Origin: a virus
Length of the DNA: 47,660 nucleotides
Direction: 5' to 3' (one strand)
IMG/VR virus record: IMGVR_UViG_3300037587_000820
Coordinates: 1 to 47,660 of that record
In this document: positions 20,695 through 39,132 of the stretch, one piece after another
How positions within the stretch are numbered: the first letter of the stretch is position 1
Layout: each line of letters opens with the position of its first letter
Notes under the pieces: generated by a model
The model's input: the letters and a program-made list of their open reading frames with translations, nothing else
Databases searched by the model: none
Told to the model about the DNA's origin: nothing
Position numbers and translations under genes: made by a program

Positions 20695-20938
20695 ACAGCT
20701 ACGCACCCGTTACCAGCGGGCCCAGCAGGACCTCGCCGTCGCCGAGAAGGAAGTAAGCACCGCCCAGACGAGCCTGACCTCGGTCGAGGAGGAATTGAAG
20801 GGCCTTGGCTTCGACCCGGCCGGCGACCTCGACGCCCAACTAGCCGCCAAGGAAGGAGAATTGGATGGAATCCTTGCCAATGTCGAGCAGCTACTCAGCG
20901 GCAGCGAGACTCAGCTTGCTCCAGAACCGCGGAGCTAA
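20672..20938 (+). CDS. Coiled-coil protein, descending arm of split SbcC-like ATPase
   Basis: An 88-aa coiled coil (IEQLRTRYQRAQQDLAVAEK and similar heptads) with ATG behind GAGGAGG. It looks like the start of the returning Rad50/SbcC coil. It ends at a TAA at 20936-20938 while the next frame (+1), already open since 20865, continues the coil into the ATPase lobe. Either two separate proteins or one read through a +1 frameshift. Confidence 0.6.
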   Translation: MADRQEIEQLRTRYQRAQQDLAVAEKEVSTAQTSLTSVEEELKGLGFDPAGDLDAQLAAKEGELDGILANVEQLLSGSETQLAPEPRS

Positions 20939-26045: not shown

Positions 26046-26334
26046 GATATACTGCACATCCCGCCAAGACGTTCACGCCTGCGCGATCCCTTGGGACTAC
26101 GCTGCTCACCCCGGCGATGGCACAGATCACGAGTGCGACTGTGGCTTCGGCTGGATTGACCGGAGGTATCAGAAGTCGCAGAAGCCACAGCTAGCCTACC
26201 TCATTGGGGAGGATTCCTGGTCGTTCTCGATAAGCCTCGACCGCGAACGGGAAGTCGGTCCCGTGTTCAGGCTTTGGTTCGGCCGCCGAGGCATCCATCT
26301 ACCCCTGAGATGGAGACCATGGGGGAAAGTCTGA
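26032..26334 (+). CDS. Hypothetical protein
   Basis: A 100-aa protein with Cys/His residues (CTSRQDVHAC, then HECDCGFGW) in the first half and a beta-rich basic C-terminus. ATG overlaps the previous gene. Its TGA overlaps the ATG chosen for the polymerase. Confidence 0.5.
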   Translation: MAGPRIYCTSRQDVHACAIPWDYAAHPGDGTDHECDCGFGWIDRRYQKSQKPQLAYLIGEDSWSFSISLDREREVGPVFRLWFGRRGIHLPLRWRPWGKV

Positions 26335-29300
26335 TGCCCCCAAGTAAGACGTGTGAACTCTGCCCCGCTCTCAAGTCCGCCCGCACTCAGATCGTCTTCG
26401 GCCGGAGCGTCGGCGACAAGCCGACCTACGCCTTCATAGGCCAGAACCCAGGAAAAGAAGAAGATGACTCCGGCCGCCCCTTCGTTGGCCAATCCGGCCA
26501 GGTCCTAGCGGCTCTACTCAAGGGCGCCGATATCTCTCTTCAGGATGTGTACCTCGACAACGCCGTAAAGTGCCTAAGCCCAGGGAACAGGAAGCCCAAG
26601 ACGCCCGAGATCACCGCATGCCACAACTTCCTTCTCGAAGACCTAAAGGCGATCGACCCACAGGTCATCATCACCATGGGCGGGCCCGCTGCCGAGAGCC
26701 TGTACGGCAAGACTTCCCTGGACGATGTGATCGGCCGGGTCTACATGCACCCCGTCCTGAACAAACCGGTCGTCCCCACCTACCATCCGGCCTTCTTGCT
26801 CCGTGGCCAGTGGTCCGCCGTGCCGCTCGTGCTGGCCCACCTGGAGACGGCCAAGCGGGTGGTAGCGGGCACGCAACAGGTGGAAGAGATGGGCGAGTAC
26901 CACACCATCACGACCCTGGATCAGCTGCGAGCGTTGCGCGACTACCTCCTGTCGTGCGACATGATCCATATCGATTCGGAGACTACCGGGCTGAACTGGA
27001 TGACGGACGAGATCATGTGCCTCTCCTTCGCCGGGAAGCCGGGAGAGGGCTACACCGTGCCGATCCTCCAGCGCGGGCTGCCTACGGAGAAGGGTTTCAC
27101 AGATCCAGTACACTTCTGGGACGTCGAAGAGGAACGCGACGTCAATCGGTTCCTCGCTGAAATCCTCTGGTCCAATGTCCCTAAGGCTCTTCAGAACGGA
27201 TCATTTGACATCCGATTCTTTGAGCGGGGAGGAGGAGACCGCCACGTCACTGCGCTAACGGCATTCGACTGGCATCTCCTAAATCTCCGCCAAGATACTC
27301 TGCTCCTTAGCCGCACCATCAACGAGAACCTGCCCTCCAAGCTGGCACCGCACGAGCAGTCGGCTCTGCTTGGGCGGCACACGGGGATGCCGGCCTATGG
27401 GGACGAGCTCAAGAAGGCATCCGCCAACAAGACCAAGATGGCAGAGGCCGACGATGATCTGGTTTGGGGGCTTGCGGCCGCCGACGCTGATGGTGTCGCC
27501 CGCCTCACGCCTGTCCTAGTTGACAAGCTCGTGCAGGACGGTGACAGCCAGTGGGCATATAACAATATTACGATTCCGATGGTCCGGGCCTGCCAGGAGA
27601 TGACCCGGCGGGGCCTGCTTGTCGACGTCCCCTACTTCGACAAGCTCTGCAAGTGGCACGACGGCCTCGCCGAAGACCTGTCCGAGAAGGTCTACGAGGC
27701 GGCGGGCCAGGAGTTCAATATCAACTCCCCGCAACAGGTGCAGAAGGTCCTCTTCGAGGACATGGGCCTAACTTCTCTGAAGAAGACGGATGCGGCGGCC
27801 GACTGCCCTGACTGCCAGAAGAACGTCTACTGCAAGAAGCACAACTCGACGGATGAAGAATCTCTCCTTGCACTCAAGGAGCAGGCAGCAACGTCAAGCC
27901 CACCCCCTACCGTTATTCCGCTCCTCGACGCCATCCTCGAGTGGCGCTCCCTGCACAAGCGCCGCGGGACGTACCTCGCCGGCACGGGAGGAGCGTCACA
28001 AGGCTTCAAGGGTCACATCCGGCCTGACGACCGGATCCACTTCTCCTTCAACGTCCTGGGTGCCGCCACGCAGCGCCTCTCATCTCAGGACCCCAACGGA
28101 CAGAACATCCCTAAGGACGTCAAGATCCCCGAACTGAAGACGAAGAACGCCTTCCGCCGTACGTTCATTGCTCCGGAGGGCCACGTCCTCATGGAGGCGG
28201 ACTGGTGTCTCGCCCCAAAGACGCGGGTGCTCACAGAAGACTTGCGGTGGAAGCCTTGTAGAGAGGTGGTTGCAGGAGATCGCCTCATTGCGATCGATGA
28301 GGAAATCTCAAACACCGCCGGCCGTAAGTATCGGACGACAACCGTGCAGCACGCAGGACGGAGGAGGGCTGACTGCTATAGCATCCGAACCAATCTCGGC
28401 GAGGTTATTGCAAGCGCGGACCACCCCTGGCTCACGCGCATTCAGCATCCGCATGGAGTTTATAAGTGGACTGTGACTCGGAGCCTGTATCCGGGGATGA
28501 AGATTCGGAGGGGGCCCAGTGTATGGGAGGAGCCAACAGACGAGATAACCGCCCGCGAGCTTGGTTATCTTGGCGGAGTCTTTGATAGAGAAGGATCCCT
28601 TTATACAGCCGGTCGGGGAGCGATCCTCTCCTTCTCACAACGTCCTGGGAAGGTTCTTGATTACACCATTGGCCTCCTTGAAAAGTACGGCTTCTCCCCC
28701 CGCGACTATGGAGAAAAGGGCGGCAAAACTGCATTTTCAAAGACAAAGGATTGTCGCACCTACTACATCACCGACATGGCCAACATTATGCGATTTCTTG
28801 GAATGGCACGGCCCCTCCGGCTGCTAGAGAAAGCTATTCCCAGTCTTTGGGAGGGGCGACGTCCGGGAAACGGGCGCTATGGAAAAGGCCGCGAACTTTA
28901 CGCGACAGTTGAGAGTGTTGAGTTTATCGGAGAACGGGAGGTCGTCTCTCTTCAGACTGACACGCACACCTTCATTGCTGAAGGAATGTTCACTCATAAT
29001 TGTCAGCTCGAGCTGTGGGTCTTAGCCTACAAGCTGGCCGAAGAGTTCGGGGACCGGGCCCTCCTCGACATGCTAGAGAGCGGTGTGGACGTCCACACCG
29101 TTGTCTCCCGAGCTATCTGGCCAGACATCGGCGCCGACCTCGACGACTTCGAGTGGGAGAAAGAGCACGACGAGACCCGGACGAAGGGGAAGGTCTTCAC
29201 CTTCGGCATCACATACGGCATGACCGTCATGGGGATTCAGGAGCGCCTCCGCTGCGGAGAAGCAGAGGCAGCCTCTCTTCTCTCCGCCTACTTCGGCATC

Positions 29301-29867
29301 GTCCCCGGACTGCCCGCCTACATCGAGTCCGTCCACAAGACCATCCGTGCGGGGGACATCCTAGAGAACGTGTGGGGGATGCGCCGGCGTTTCCCTGAGG
29401 CGGCGGTCATGCTCGCTGTTCCGAGCTCGAGAGTGAACTACGCCATCGAGGACCTCTACCGGATCGGCGTGAACTGGCCCATCCAGTCTGGCGGTGGGGG
29501 CCTGCACAATCAGGCTCACATCAAGTCCGAACAATCGGAGCAGCTCAACGAACGGGCGAAGATTGTCAACGCCGTCCACGACTCCTGCCTCTCCGAGACA
29601 CCGGCGCCGGACCTTGCCACCTGCCTGGAGACAGCGTGGATGATCAAACAATTTTGGCAAGGAATCGCTATGAACACCGTGCGGCCGAACGGCGAGAAGC
29701 TCGGCTGGCAGGTGCCGGTGGAGGTGAAGTGGGGCCATGACTGGGGGGACCTGCACCACGTCCTCACAGCGAAGGGAGAATATCTGGATGAGCGTGAGAA
29801 GGAACGAGAACGCGCAGAAGATGCTCAAGCTGCGGAAGGAACGATGAATGGTGAAAGAACACTGTGA
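26334..29867 (+). CDS. polA: UDG-DNA polymerase I fusion with intein
   Basis: A 1177-aa precursor. Residues 1-180 form a family-4 uracil-DNA glycosylase: Fe-S cysteines in CELC plus two further Cys, motif GQNPGKEED (Gln where Glu is usual) and YHPAFLLR. From about 205 comes a 3'-5' exonuclease (HIDSETTGL at about 212; NGSFDIRFF near 288), then a family-A polymerase. Motif A EADW|CQLELWVLAY is split by a 265-aa intein (625-889); motif B RTKGKVFTFGITYG starts at 949 and motif C VNAVHDS at 1078. After splicing the enzyme is about 912 aa. ATG 26334 overlaps the previous stop and has GGGGGAAAG upstream. UDG-PolA fusions are known in SPO1-like phages. Confidence 0.93.
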   Translation: MPPSKTCELCPALKSARTQIVFGRSVGDKPTYAFIGQNPGKEEDDSGRPFVGQSGQVLAALLKGADISLQDVYLDNAVKCLSPGNRKPKTPEITACHNFLLEDLKAIDPQVIITMGGPAAESLYGKTSLDDVIGRVYMHPVLNKPVVPTYHPAFLLRGQWSAVPLVLAHLETAKRVVAGTQQVEEMGEYHTITTLDQLRALRDYLLSCDMIHIDSETTGLNWMTDEIMCLSFAGKPGEGYTVPILQRGLPTEKGFTDPVHFWDVEEERDVNRFLAEILWSNVPKALQNGSFDIRFFERGGGDRHVTALTAFDWHLLNLRQDTLLLSRTINENLPSKLAPHEQSALLGRHTGMPAYGDELKKASANKTKMAEADDDLVWGLAAADADGVARLTPVLVDKLVQDGDSQWAYNNITIPMVRACQEMTRRGLLVDVPYFDKLCKWHDGLAEDLSEKVYEAAGQEFNINSPQQVQKVLFEDMGLTSLKKTDAAADCPDCQKNVYCKKHNSTDEESLLALKEQAATSSPPPTVIPLLDAILEWRSLHKRRGTYLAGTGGASQGFKGHIRPDDRIHFSFNVLGAATQRLSSQDPNGQNIPKDVKIPELKTKNAFRRTFIAPEGHVLMEADWCLAPKTRVLTEDLRWKPCREVVAGDRLIAIDEEISNTAGRKYRTTTVQHAGRRRADCYSIRTNLGEVIASADHPWLTRIQHPHGVYKWTVTRSLYPGMKIRRGPSVWEEPTDEITARELGYLGGVFDREGSLYTAGRGAILSFSQRPGKVLDYTIGLLEKYGFSPRDYGEKGGKTAFSKTKDCRTYYITDMANIMRFLGMARPLRLLEKAIPSLWEGRRPGNGRYGKGRELYATVESVEFIGEREVVSLQTDTHTFIAEGMFTHNCQLELWVLAYKLAEEFGDRALLDMLESGVDVHTVVSRAIWPDIGADLDDFEWEKEHDETRTKGKVFTFGITYGMTVMGIQERLRCGEAEAASLLSAYFGIVPGLPAYIESVHKTIRAGDILENVWGMRRRFPEAAVMLAVPSSRVNYAIEDLYRIGVNWPIQSGGGGLHNQAHIKSEQSEQLNERAKIVNAVHDSCLSETPAPDLATCLETAWMIKQFWQGIAMNTVRPNGEKLGWQVPVEVKWGHDWGDLHHVLTAKGEYLDEREKERERAEDAQAAEGTMNGERTL
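28206..29000 (+). mobile_element. Intein with LAGLIDADG-type endonuclease domain
   Basis: 795 bp, 265 aa, in frame within the polymerase. Starts with Cys1 (CLAPKTRVLTED), has block B with SADHPW (Ser for the usual Thr of TxxH), a LAGLIDADG-like motif ELGYLGGVFDREGSL, and ends EFIGEREVVSLQTDTHTF...GMFTHN followed by extein Cys. All splicing residues (C1, block B His, terminal His-Asn, +1 Cys) are present, so splicing is likely. Only one LAGLIDADG motif is obvious and the length is short for a full homing intein, so the nuclease may be single-motif or decaying. Confidence 0.92.
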
Positions 29868-32050: not shown

Positions 32051-32065
32051 GAGGAGTAGACTTGA

Positions 32066-32434
32066 GTGCCCAAAAGAGACGTCGGAAACGCCAGGATGCG
32101 AAGCGCCGGCGACGCGAAACTACACAAGCGGCGCCGGACAGATCACCTGCGGTCGGCAATCAGGGGCTACCAGAAGCCCCCCTGGACCCCGGAGGGGCTG
32201 ATGGACAAGATGGGGCGGCTGGCCGTCCGGCTGATCGCAGCGAACACGGTGCTCAAGGAGAAGACGGGGATCCGGGTGCTCGGCCCGTCGCTCGAGTCAG
32301 CGCTGAACCAACTGATCTACCGAGACATCAGCGTGCGGAAATCGATCGGCCCTACGCCTACTACGAAGCCCTCGACATCCCCTCAGCCGTCCGCTTCGTC
32401 GGCTGGGTCCGAGAACAAGCCGGAGAACCCTTAG
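32066..32434 (+). CDS. Basic hypothetical protein, possibly 5' part of the next gene
   Basis: A 122-aa frame from GTG 32066 behind GAGGAG. Residues 1-93 are basic and helical (PWTPEGLMDKMGRLAVRLIA and similar). The last 30 residues are Ser/Thr/Pro-rich and read like out-of-phase sequence of the following gene, which continues in the -1 frame with no normal start codon. A -1 frameshift or one missing base near 32348 would join both into a protein of about 455 aa. Confidence 0.5.
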   Translation: MPKRDVGNARMRSAGDAKLHKRRRTDHLRSAIRGYQKPPWTPEGLMDKMGRLAVRLIAANTVLKEKTGIRVLGPSLESALNQLIYRDISVRKSIGPTPTTKPSTSPQPSASSAGSENKPENP

Positions 32435-33435
32435 GCTTCGCTGTCCATGAAGGCTTTTTCGGGGTGGCCAATCAAGATGCAGGCTGGCACTGTAGCGTCG
32501 GCGGCAACGCTCTCCTTGGAGCAATGTTCCGAGACAATCTCCCCAGCCCCCCTCCCGAGCTAATCGTTCAAGACATCTCACAGAACCCTGACATCAGGCG
32601 GGGAGTGCCACTTATCGGCGACATCTCCCTTCTGAGGAAGGCTACGGGCCGGATCTCGTCCACACCTCACTGGCCCTCACCGGCCGACGAAGCCTATGAT
32701 GCCTTCGTCACACACGCCCATTGGGAGAAGACAGCTCCCGCCTTCTACTCACAGGTCGCCATCCCACGGGCCCGGCAGAAGATAACCGCCCAGCTCGACC
32801 ACGACGGCACGCCCTGGCGCATCGTCTACAACAACCTCCTCCTGCGGATCATCGCCCACTACACCTGGGAGCCCGCACTCGTCGCCGCATTCAATGATGG
32901 CCGGGATCCGCTGCCTCATGTTGCCGAGATGCTGGAGCTGCCTGACGCTGAATCGGCCTACGCTGCGATTCTGTGGGCCTCTTTCGGGTGGGACAGTGCC
33001 TTCCTCGACTCACACTGCCCAAGGCTGTTCTCACGGCTCTCAGACGAATTGACGGGCATCAGGGAGAGGTGCGAGAAGCGGATTGCGACGATCGCCATGA
33101 AAGCCATCGAGCAGAAGGACGACTACATCCGCAACCGGGAGGCCCACACGCTGTACGGGCAGCGGATCCCGTGGAACCTGAGCATCGCGGAGATGATCGA
33201 GCGGCGCTACCTCATGACGGCCGAAGAACTGCTCGACGTCGTGTGCGTAGCCTTCGTGGGAGACGAGCCGTTGACCGTAGGGGCAGTGGATGGGGACATG
33301 GCCGAACGGAGCATCAGGATCCGCGGCAAGGCCCGAGGGCTGCGTGAGGAGTGGCAGCCGGTTCTCGAAGACGTCGCTGGCCTAGGTGGTGTGTTGTCGA
33401 TCCCATTGGGGGCTATGACGATATGGGGGGAGTAA
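32341..33435 (+). CDS. Degenerate family-A polymerase-like protein
   Basis: About 364 aa in a frame with no ATG/GTG/TTG before 32524; 32341 marks where sensible coding begins. YNNLLLRIIAH followed by EPALVAAFNDGRD aligns with PolA motif A YSQIELRIAAH and its downstream DPALIAAF-type helix, but the catalytic Asp before the Tyr is Val and the Glu is Leu. Further on AHTLYGQRIPW resembles the Pol I TLFGRRR region. It therefore looks like a catalytically dead polymerase domain, perhaps a structural partner of the main polymerase. The similarity is judged by eye. Confidence 0.5.
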   Translation: MDRPYAYYEALDIPSAVRFVGWVREQAGEPLGFAVHEGFFGVANQDAGWHCSVGGNALLGAMFRDNLPSPPPELIVQDISQNPDIRRGVPLIGDISLLRKATGRISSTPHWPSPADEAYDAFVTHAHWEKTAPAFYSQVAIPRARQKITAQLDHDGTPWRIVYNNLLLRIIAHYTWEPALVAAFNDGRDPLPHVAEMLELPDAESAYAAILWASFGWDSAFLDSHCPRLFSRLSDELTGIRERCEKRIATIAMKAIEQKDDYIRNREAHTLYGQRIPWNLSIAEMIERRYLMTAEELLDVVCVAFVGDEPLTVGAVDGDMAERSIRIRGKARGLREEWQPVLEDVAGLGGVLSIPLGAMTIWGE

Positions 33436-33744
33436 ATCGGCATCCTAGCAGCGAAAGGTTCCATCAGCTCCTGACTGAGATCGGCGAGCTTCACGACCGG
33501 AAGCAGGCCGACTACGGGACGGAGGCGGACCCCTTCAACAACGTACGGCAGTCAGCGCAGGATTGGGGGGCTCCCGCCGTGGGTGGGAGCCATAATCCGG
33601 GGGACGGACAAGGTGAGGAGGCTTCAGACTCTGCACCGGAAGGGAAGCCTAGCCAATGAATCCGCCTACGACTCCCTCAAAGACCTCGCCGTGTGCGCGC
33701 TGATCGCTTACGTGCTGATGGAGGAGGGAGGTGATGCCTCGTGA
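33423..33744 (+). pseudogene. Nmad1/DUF1599-like gene with single frameshift
   Basis: The N-terminal part (FHQLLTEIGELHDRKQADYG, then DPFNNVRQS) is read from ATG 33423. The family's second half (VGAIIRGTDKVRRLQTLHRK, then SLKDLAVCALIAYVLMEE) continues in the next frame to TGA 33742-33744. The phase change falls at or just after the six-G run at 33565-33570: five Gs would restore one frame through WG-PPWVGA. This family is associated with modified-nucleotide metabolism in phages. It may be a sequencing error, a real mutation or a programmed shift. Confidence 0.7.
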
Positions 33745-36358: not shown

Positions 36359-37972
36359 CTACTCTTTTCCCTCGTAGTATTCCATGTTCCTCTTCAGCCG
36401 CTCGTCATTCGGATGGGCCGAGAGCGCCTTTGCCCCGTACAGCCGCGCCTCCTCGGAACGCCCCAGCTTGTGCAAGCAGACAGCCAGGAGGTCGTACCGG
36501 CGCCAATCGTAGATGTCCAGGTCATCGAAGAAGCCTTTCGGGCCCGGCACTGTGGACGCCATGAACCACGTCGCCCCCTCTTCGTATCGCTGTTGCTCGT
36601 AGCGCAGCTTGCCCAGATAGTAGTAGCCCTCCGCCACCGTTGGGCACACCTCGATGGCCTTGAGGTACGCCTGCGCCGCCGCCTCTGCGTCCCCAAGCGC
36701 CTGCTGGCAGAGCCCGGCAATGAGGCACCCCCGCGCCCTCTGCACCGGCCAGGAGACGGGCGCCTGAAGCATGAGCCCCACCAGGCCGATTGCCTCGTGG
36801 TAGTGCCCCTTGTTGTGGTGCTCACGGGCCAGGTAGAAGAGGCTACGTTCCTCCGGTGCGCCCTCGATACTGAGGTTGCTTCGTAGCGCCACGAAGATGT
36901 CTGTGTGGTTGGGCCGGTCGCCGCTGGGCCTATTCAGGTGCTCAACCAGGATCTGCGGGGCCGCCGTCCTGACCGGGCCATTCAGCCAATTGTGAGCAGC
37001 GCCTTCCCAGCGCCACGTCCCGTTGTGCTTGTGAAGCATCTCTTGGCGAAGGAACTCCTTGAGGGGCGTGCCGGTTGCGTCGCGCTGAAAGATCAACTTG
37101 GGAGAGAGGCCGTCCTGCTTGCCCTCTTCTACGATGCCGCGAATAGCCTCCTTGCCTTCCAGTAGAATCTCGTCGGCGTCCTGCCAGTAGACGTACTGGC
37201 CTGAGCATAGACTCTCGGCGTAATTGCGGGCCGCCGCAAAGTCATCGACCCACGGGAAATGGCCAATCTTGGCACCGAAGGACTCGGCGATCTCGATGGT
37301 CTTGTCCGTCGAGCCTGTGTCCACAACGACCAACTCATCCCCGACGCCTCGTAGCGATTCGAGACACTGGCCCAGCAGCTCCTCTTCGTTCTTGGTGATG
37401 AGCACGACGGTGAGCTTGGGCCGGCCCGCTGGGTGCGCCGAGGCGATCACGTACCTGTCCGAGTAGGCGTGGCCGCACACCTCGCCGAAGGGTTGCAGCT
37501 TCTCGGTCATGCCGTTGAGGTGGAAGGTTCGGACATGCGCGGTGTCGGGCACGGCGTCGCCGTTGGGCGTAGTGACGATCAGGCGGCCGTCCGGCGCCAG
37601 GGCACGCTTCACCTTCTTGAGCAGCCTGGCCTCCGCGTCATCGTCCAGGTGTTCGAGCAGCTCGCCGAGAACGATGGTATCCCACGGACCCTTTGGGGTA
37701 GGCAGCCCTTCGCCCAGGAAGTCGCGGACGATGAACTGGGACGAGAAGCTAGGCGCACGCTCCTGGGCACGGCGGCAGGCTTCCCGCGAGAAGTCCACGC
37801 CCACATAGAAGGCTCGCCGCCCGTCGCCCAGCGCCGCTGCCAAGGCCCCATCACCGCAACCGACATCGAGCACCCGACCCCGGCAGAGCTCGGCAACGAA
37901 CTGGACGCGCTTCTCATCCACCGCGTACTCGCCCCGGTACACCTTGTCGTAATAGGCGGCGGTTTTCATCAT
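36359..37972 (-). CDS. Methyltransferase-glycosyltransferase-TPR fusion
   Basis: A 537-aa three-domain protein. Residues 1-185: class I SAM methyltransferase with [15 protein letters not shown] and [11 protein letters not shown]. Residues 187-400: GT2 glycosyltransferase with [31 protein letters not shown] and QDADEIL. Residues 400-537: TPR-like repeats ([19 protein letters not shown]). Such fusions occur in bacterial surface-glycan clusters. Here it lies between tail genes and overlaps the collagen-like gene's stop, so a virion protein may be its substrate. Confidence 0.82.
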
Positions 37973-39132
37973 GTGGGGTCAGCCTCTAGAGTCACGGTGC
38001 ATTGGGTGATCGTTGTGACCTCATCGATGTTAACCCGCATGACATCGCGGGCTGCCATCGTCGTTGTCCAGCCTGTGAGGGTCTGATCTTCGTCCTTGAC
38101 ACCACCGGCGATTTCCAGTTCATGGCCAGTACAGATTGAGTCAGCGTTGACAGGTGGATGGTTGGCATAGCTATCAACGAAGATGTCCACCTTGATGCTA
38201 CCACTTACGTCGGCCAGGAGCCGTCCGCGCTTCAAGGTGAGCGCCACGTTTGGCATGTCGATTGCTGGCCGGGGGCCGGTTTCGAGCACACTGCCGCCAC
38301 CGTCCATGACGATGAGGATCTTGCGCGTGCTAGCGCCCGTAGGTCCCGTCGAGCCTGTTGGCCCAGTGGGCCCGGTGGGCCCCGTTCCGGCAGTCCCGGA
38401 GGTTCCTTGCGCTCCAGTGGGCCCGGTCGGACCTGTTGGTCCTGTCGGTCCCGTCCCGCCCGTAGCACCGGCAGTCCCGACGGTGCCTTGAGAGCCTGTC
38501 GGGCCAGTGGGCCCGGTGGGGCCGGTCGCTCCCGCTGTACCGACAGTTCCTTGACTTCCGGTAGGGCCAGTGGGTCCCGTTGGGCCAGTTGCACCAGCCG
38601 TTCCTACTGTGCCTTGAGAACCTGTCGGGCCGGTAGGTCCAGTTGGTCCCGTACTACCCGTGGCCCCGGCTGTTCCTACCGTACCCTGTGATCCCGTCGG
38701 CCCCGTTGGTCCTGTCGGCCCGGTGGGCCCCGTTCCTGCCGTTCCCGCGGTTCCCTGGCTGCCTGTCGGGCCGGTAGGGCCAGTGGGTCCCGTTGGGCCC
38801 GTACCAGCCGTTCCGGCTGTCCCCTGTGATCCTGTCGGACCAGTTGGTCCGGTTGGTCCGGTTGGTCCGGTTGGGCCTGTTGGACCCGTAGCCCCTGTTC
38901 CCGCCGTCCCTTGAGCACCAGTCGGGCCTGTCGGCCCCGTAGCTCCTGTAGGGCCTGTTCCGGCAGTGCCGGAGGTTCCAGCAGTCCCCTGCGGCCCAGT
39001 GGGCCCGGTTGGCCCAGTAGGGCCGGTTCCGGCTGTCCCCGCCGTTCCCGCTGTCCCTTGTGATCCGGTTGGACCTGTGGGGCCGGTCGGGCCCGTACCA
39101 GTCGTAGCAGCATAGAAGTCCCAACCACTCAT
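37969..39132 (-). CDS. Collagen-like repeat fibre protein
   Basis: A 387-aa protein. Residues 13-266 are Gly-X-Y triplets, mostly GPT, with regular breaks of the form [13 protein letters not shown]. The last 121 residues (from [13 protein letters not shown]) form a globular beta domain that may trimerise and nucleate the triple helix. Gly-Pro-Thr collagen repeats are common in phage tail fibres and are often O-glycosylated in Gram-positive systems. The adjacent methyltransferase-glycosyltransferase is a natural candidate for modifying it. Confidence 0.85.
38335..39096 (-). repeat. Collagen-coding DNA repeat tract
   Basis: About 760 bp of imperfect 9-bp (Gly-Pro-Thr) repeats with about ten interrupting cassettes. 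Codon choice at the repeat varies, so it is protein-level rather than simple DNA repetition. Prone to slippage and recombination, so the copy number in an assembly may be unreliable. Confidence 0.85.

Follow-up and report, generated by a model that had tools for sequence, protein, structure and literature searches.

A phage orphan gene with a short stretch resembling motif A of family-A DNA polymerases

The locus and its phage

The viral record IMGVR_UViG_3300037587_000820 was analysed over its whole length of 47,660 bases, which constitutes the window. P0001, found at positions 32341-33435 of the plus strand, is an orphan coding frame of 364 amino acids (32341-33432) followed by a stop codon, as delimited by translation and codon usage and by a lack of relatives in the collections searched. 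It is flanked by a KTSC-domain gene and by a gene of the phrog_1485 type, to which PHROGs assigns no function, and is preceded by an amidase gene and a small-terminase-like gene.

The phage's actual polymerase is a UDG-PolA fusion (26274-29867, plus strand), recognized through UDG, DNA_pol_A and intein matches, which retains the motif A Asp and Glu as well as the motif C sequence HDS. An intein at about 28206-29000 is inserted into motif A between ADW and CQLEL, beside the catalytic Asp, and bears weak LAGLIDADG traces and a C-terminal splicing motif. Across this insertion, the match to PF00476 positions 15-159 stops at 28205 and that to positions 160-380 restarts at 29001. A PolA fragment was also seen in Brevundimonas phage StAshley (ON529865.1, 63725-63907), where a 60-residue hypothetical protein adjoining a DNA ligase gene, apart from the full UDG-PolA, matches PF00476 positions 122-169 around motif A (FVAMDFRDLELRVMAF) with 31.7 bits.

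The record has no close relative among GenBank phages. Its RecA, DnaB-type helicase and UDG-PolA have only distant phage relatives, with identity below 30% for UDG-PolA (best among the matches listed), and the two tail-region proteins compared with GenBank phages gave no match. Neither a tRNA nor an Rfam family was found in the whole record. The tail region includes a gene on the minus strand (37969-39132) for a collagen-like protein with long GPTGPTGPT repeats.

Coding frame and start of P0001

P0001 is a genuine coding frame. Its codon usage resembles that of other genes in the same phage and scores +0.26 bits per codon, as against approximately -0.6 in the other two forward frames and -0.1 on the opposite strand. 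Position 32341 is not itself a start codon and falls where the coding frame changes (32327-32351); the nearest in-frame start candidates are TTG at 32062 and GTG at 32464. Codon usage favors frame 2 over 32080-32330 and frame 1, that of P0001, from 32336 on (range 32327-32351). A two-frame reading with this switch scores 113 bits, compared with 75 for frame 1 throughout. The upstream segment (32066-32344, plus strand) would encode 93 residues with a pI of 11.4 and a charge of +13, while the 364-residue part is acidic (pI 5.2, charge -14).

Two further frame jumps occur in the contig. The phrog_1485-type gene at 33435-33741 is split, such that the frame matching phrog_1485 positions 18-53 gives way to the next frame for positions 53-102; the jump falls on six consecutive G near 33570, and its direction is opposite to that of the jump near 32336. 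Codon usage reveals another near 20918, within an ATPase-like gene. Uncorrected assembly indels are probably the simplest account of all these jumps, and P0001 would then probably make up the last 80% of a protein of about 456 residues that opens with a very basic segment. Alternatively, the cause may lie in programmed frameshifting or in separate genes, the upstream one being a small gene on the open reading frame 32066-32434 (plus strand). It is improbable that 32062-33435 encodes a single 457-residue protein starting at TTG 32062, with the 122-residue frame as an overlapping gene and no frame jump at the start of P0001. The frame is indeed open all through, and a purine-rich GAGGAG stands immediately 5′ of both candidate starts, but as far as about 32336 codon usage speaks strongly for the other frame, and the neighboring gene contains a clear frame jump of its own.

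Resemblance to family-A polymerases

An earlier note, made from the sequence alone, had taken P0001 for a catalytically dead family-A polymerase paralogue. The peptides that it quoted are all present, YNNLLLRIIAH at 32827-32859, EPALVAAFNDGRD at 32869-32907 and AHTLYGQRIPW at 33142-33174. Profile alignments and a weak PF00476 match delimit a PolA-like stretch of 55 residues (32770-32934, plus strand; P0001 residues 144-198) that comprises IR..F.A, motif A and the helices next to it.

Against a palm profile built from 20 phage PolAs, P0001 scores 10.4 bits and tops 5000 shuffled sequences (best shuffle, 7.1). When 782 open reading frames from the window and other loci were ranked with the palm profile, P0001 (9.7 bits) came directly after 23 true PolA frames, and the next scored 3.7. 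Narrower palm profiles placed it second and fifth relative to 5000 shuffles; eight phage PolAs aligned together were too diverse to serve for scanning. Comparison with the 20 phage PolAs by hhalign gave a probability of 52% and a score of 39.8, the maximum among 300 shuffles being 34.3. In Pfam, positions 159-192 of PF00476, which hold motif A, align with P0001 residues 163-196 at 11.1-12.1 bits, below the curated cut-off of 34.3 bits. The corresponding E-value is 0.002 in a search restricted to this record and 0.09-0.19 in a search of the whole library, in which DUF7422 matches P0001 equally well; a neighboring protein collects five unrelated Pfam matches at the same level. Since the earlier note had been free to choose any family, the all-family search is the fair yardstick. 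The proposed mirroring of PolA motif A is thus borne out in part: with PolA as a single hypothesis, the aligned sequences resemble each other above chance, but the library-wide E-value is at noise level.

Family-A polymerases need the Asp and Glu of motif A for catalysis. In the P0001-PolA alignment, the catalytic Asp is replaced by Val and the motif A Glu (DYSxxE) by Leu, as the earlier note had observed. If this alignment is right, these substitutions rule out polymerase catalysis.

Outside residues 144-198 or so, similarity to PolA has no statistical support in flank shuffles. With motif A held fixed, shuffled flanks align to PolA as well as the actual sequence does in 13-45% of cases on the C-terminal side and in 5-34% on the N-terminal side, depending on gap cost. 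By eye, in MAFFT alignments, TGRISS, TLYGQR, GDE and a C-terminal IPL...WGE stand in PolA order, TGRISS (32644-32661, plus strand) resembling the PolA sequence TGRLSS and lying about 60 residues before YNN. Because the flanks score like shuffles, neither TLYGQR nor the other motifs picked out by eye count as evidence, and the likeness of AHTLYGQRIPW to the TLFGRR region of PolA falls with them. The two MAFFT alignments that apparently placed all PolA motifs were set aside for the same reason and because they disagree on motif C: VGDE can be aligned with VHDE in one and not in the other. Of the O-helix or motif B (R...K...NFG..YG), only ASFGW can be placed, without the Lys or the Tyr, where the alignment is no better than those of shuffles. 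The distance from TLYGQR to the C-terminus is much shorter than in the aligned PolAs. An exonuclease-like reading of residues 1-95 likewise found no support, 12-19% of shuffles being as good.

Homologues and predicted structure

No relatives of P0001 were found in 50,697 GenBank phage records (tblastn, up to an E-value of 10) or in plasmids searched by tblastn. Peptide-pattern scans of IMG/VR and GTDB genomes retrieved no relative of P0001 either; scans of this kind, which also took in the neighboring and replication genes, detect close relatives only, and more distant ones could therefore still exist. A DNA pattern for YNNxxLRxxAH matched by chance in spurious frames only. P0001 belongs to no family in PHROGs, NCBIfam or the PADLOC collection of defence systems, a PDB sequence search returned chance matches only, and BLASTP with the phiC31 PolA gave no meaningful match. 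When P0001 was compared with nine phage records carrying UDG-PolA or related polymerases, the sole match was a PolA gene, at motif A. In the collections searched, no homologue was thus found that supports a polymerase origin, and equally none with a different function.

AlphaFold models of P0001 show neither a family-A palm nor a confident unrelated fold. The mean pLDDT is 36.5 for P0001 alone and 37.9 when six rows were supplied, among them PolA palm sequences from three IMG/VR phages and from the phage under study; the latter model is entirely helical, with no palm strands. Both are too poor for fold assignment or a fold search. That the PolA rows fail to improve the model argues only weakly against a PolA domain, because single orphan sequences often fail.

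What P0001 may be, and comparison with known systems

We favor, with a probability of about 0.55, a reading in which the P0001 gene is an orphan of about 456 codons, composed of a basic part of about 90 residues in the upstream frame and the acidic 364 residues, that encodes an accessory protein whose likeness to PolA is coincidental rather than the mark of a polymerase domain. The 55-residue likeness would then be a chance product of helical sequence rich in Leu, Ile, Arg and Ala. P0001 has no recognizable catalytic motifs, and the protein may serve the phage as a non-enzymatic accessory factor; if the alignment is right, the loss of the catalytic residues points to such a factor irrespective of descent from PolA. 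Judging from composition, the basic N-terminal segment (93 residues, +13) could bind nucleic acid, a putative role suggested by charge alone, and the acidic helical part could mediate protein contacts.

The alternative, tentative and distinctly less probable, is that a relative of family-A polymerases has undergone heavy decay or exaptation, keeping a palm core around motif A but losing the thumb and a large part of the fingers, and would act as a DNA-binding or replisome accessory rather than an enzyme. The results that favor it are those that tell against a coincidence, namely a motif A match above 5000 shuffles and above every non-PolA frame among the 782, the hhalign probability of 52% and a plausible order of motifs by eye, together with the E-value of 0.002 within the record and the nine-phage search that retrieved a PolA gene alone. 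Precedents exist in divergent second phage PolAs, whose palms are active (PMC11348598), and in inactivated PolBs (PMC2527604, PMC4304020). Against this stand the library-wide E-value of 0.09-0.19, flanks that score like shuffles, the palm that fails to form in AlphaFold even with PolA rows and the shortened region after TLYGQR; moreover, no homologue was found that would show conservation. The noise-level Pfam scores, the silent flanks, the failed palm and the lack of relatives and families, along with the codon usage and frame switch that define the gene, are what the accessory-protein reading draws on. The inactive polymerase domain proposed earlier thus retains a local motif A likeness, with a dead site if the alignment is right, and lacks significance across the library, support from the flanks, homologues and a fold. 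The term paralogue is unsupported, since a tie between P0001 and the phage's own UDG-PolA is not established. A dead polymerase is possible, at approximately 1 in 4 by judgement rather than computation, but is not demonstrated. We consider it unlikely that, alongside an active UDG-PolA, this phage has retained a much reduced second PolA as a relic that lacks both catalytic motif A residues and functions non-catalytically, in replication or in packaging. As the evidence stands, P0001 joins the many orphans in the gene set of an unclassified phage, and it warns against calling a polymerase from a single motif.

With family-A polymerases (PF00476), including the UDG-PolA of the same phage, P0001 shares 55 residues in which IR..F.A is followed by Y..(x)LR..A....P.L..AF..G.D. 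It differs from them in its score of 11-12 bits (cut-off, 34.3), in the absence of the catalytic Asp and Glu, and in having no support beyond motif A and no assigned fold. Phages with a second, divergent PolA (divPolA1 and divPolA2), whose palms are catalytic, have been described (PMC11348598). If P0001 were related to PolA, it too would stand next to a regular polymerase as a second, divergent gene of PolA type with a shortened thumb, but divPolA1 and divPolA2 have catalytic palms, and P0001 has no tblastn match in GenBank phages as a whole. A small search of the literature turned up no phage with an inactivated PolA, and a relic in P0001, if true, would be the first known to us. Inactivated members of the PolB family occur in archaea (PMC2527604), and chordopoxviruses possess an inactivated PolB relative, F12 (PMC4304020). 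These provide a cellular and a viral precedent for a polymerase fold kept without catalysis, but they belong to another polymerase family and form conserved families, whereas P0001 is a lone orphan. If a dead PolA were confirmed here, the non-catalytic reuse of polymerase folds, known in family B, would extend to family A and to phages.
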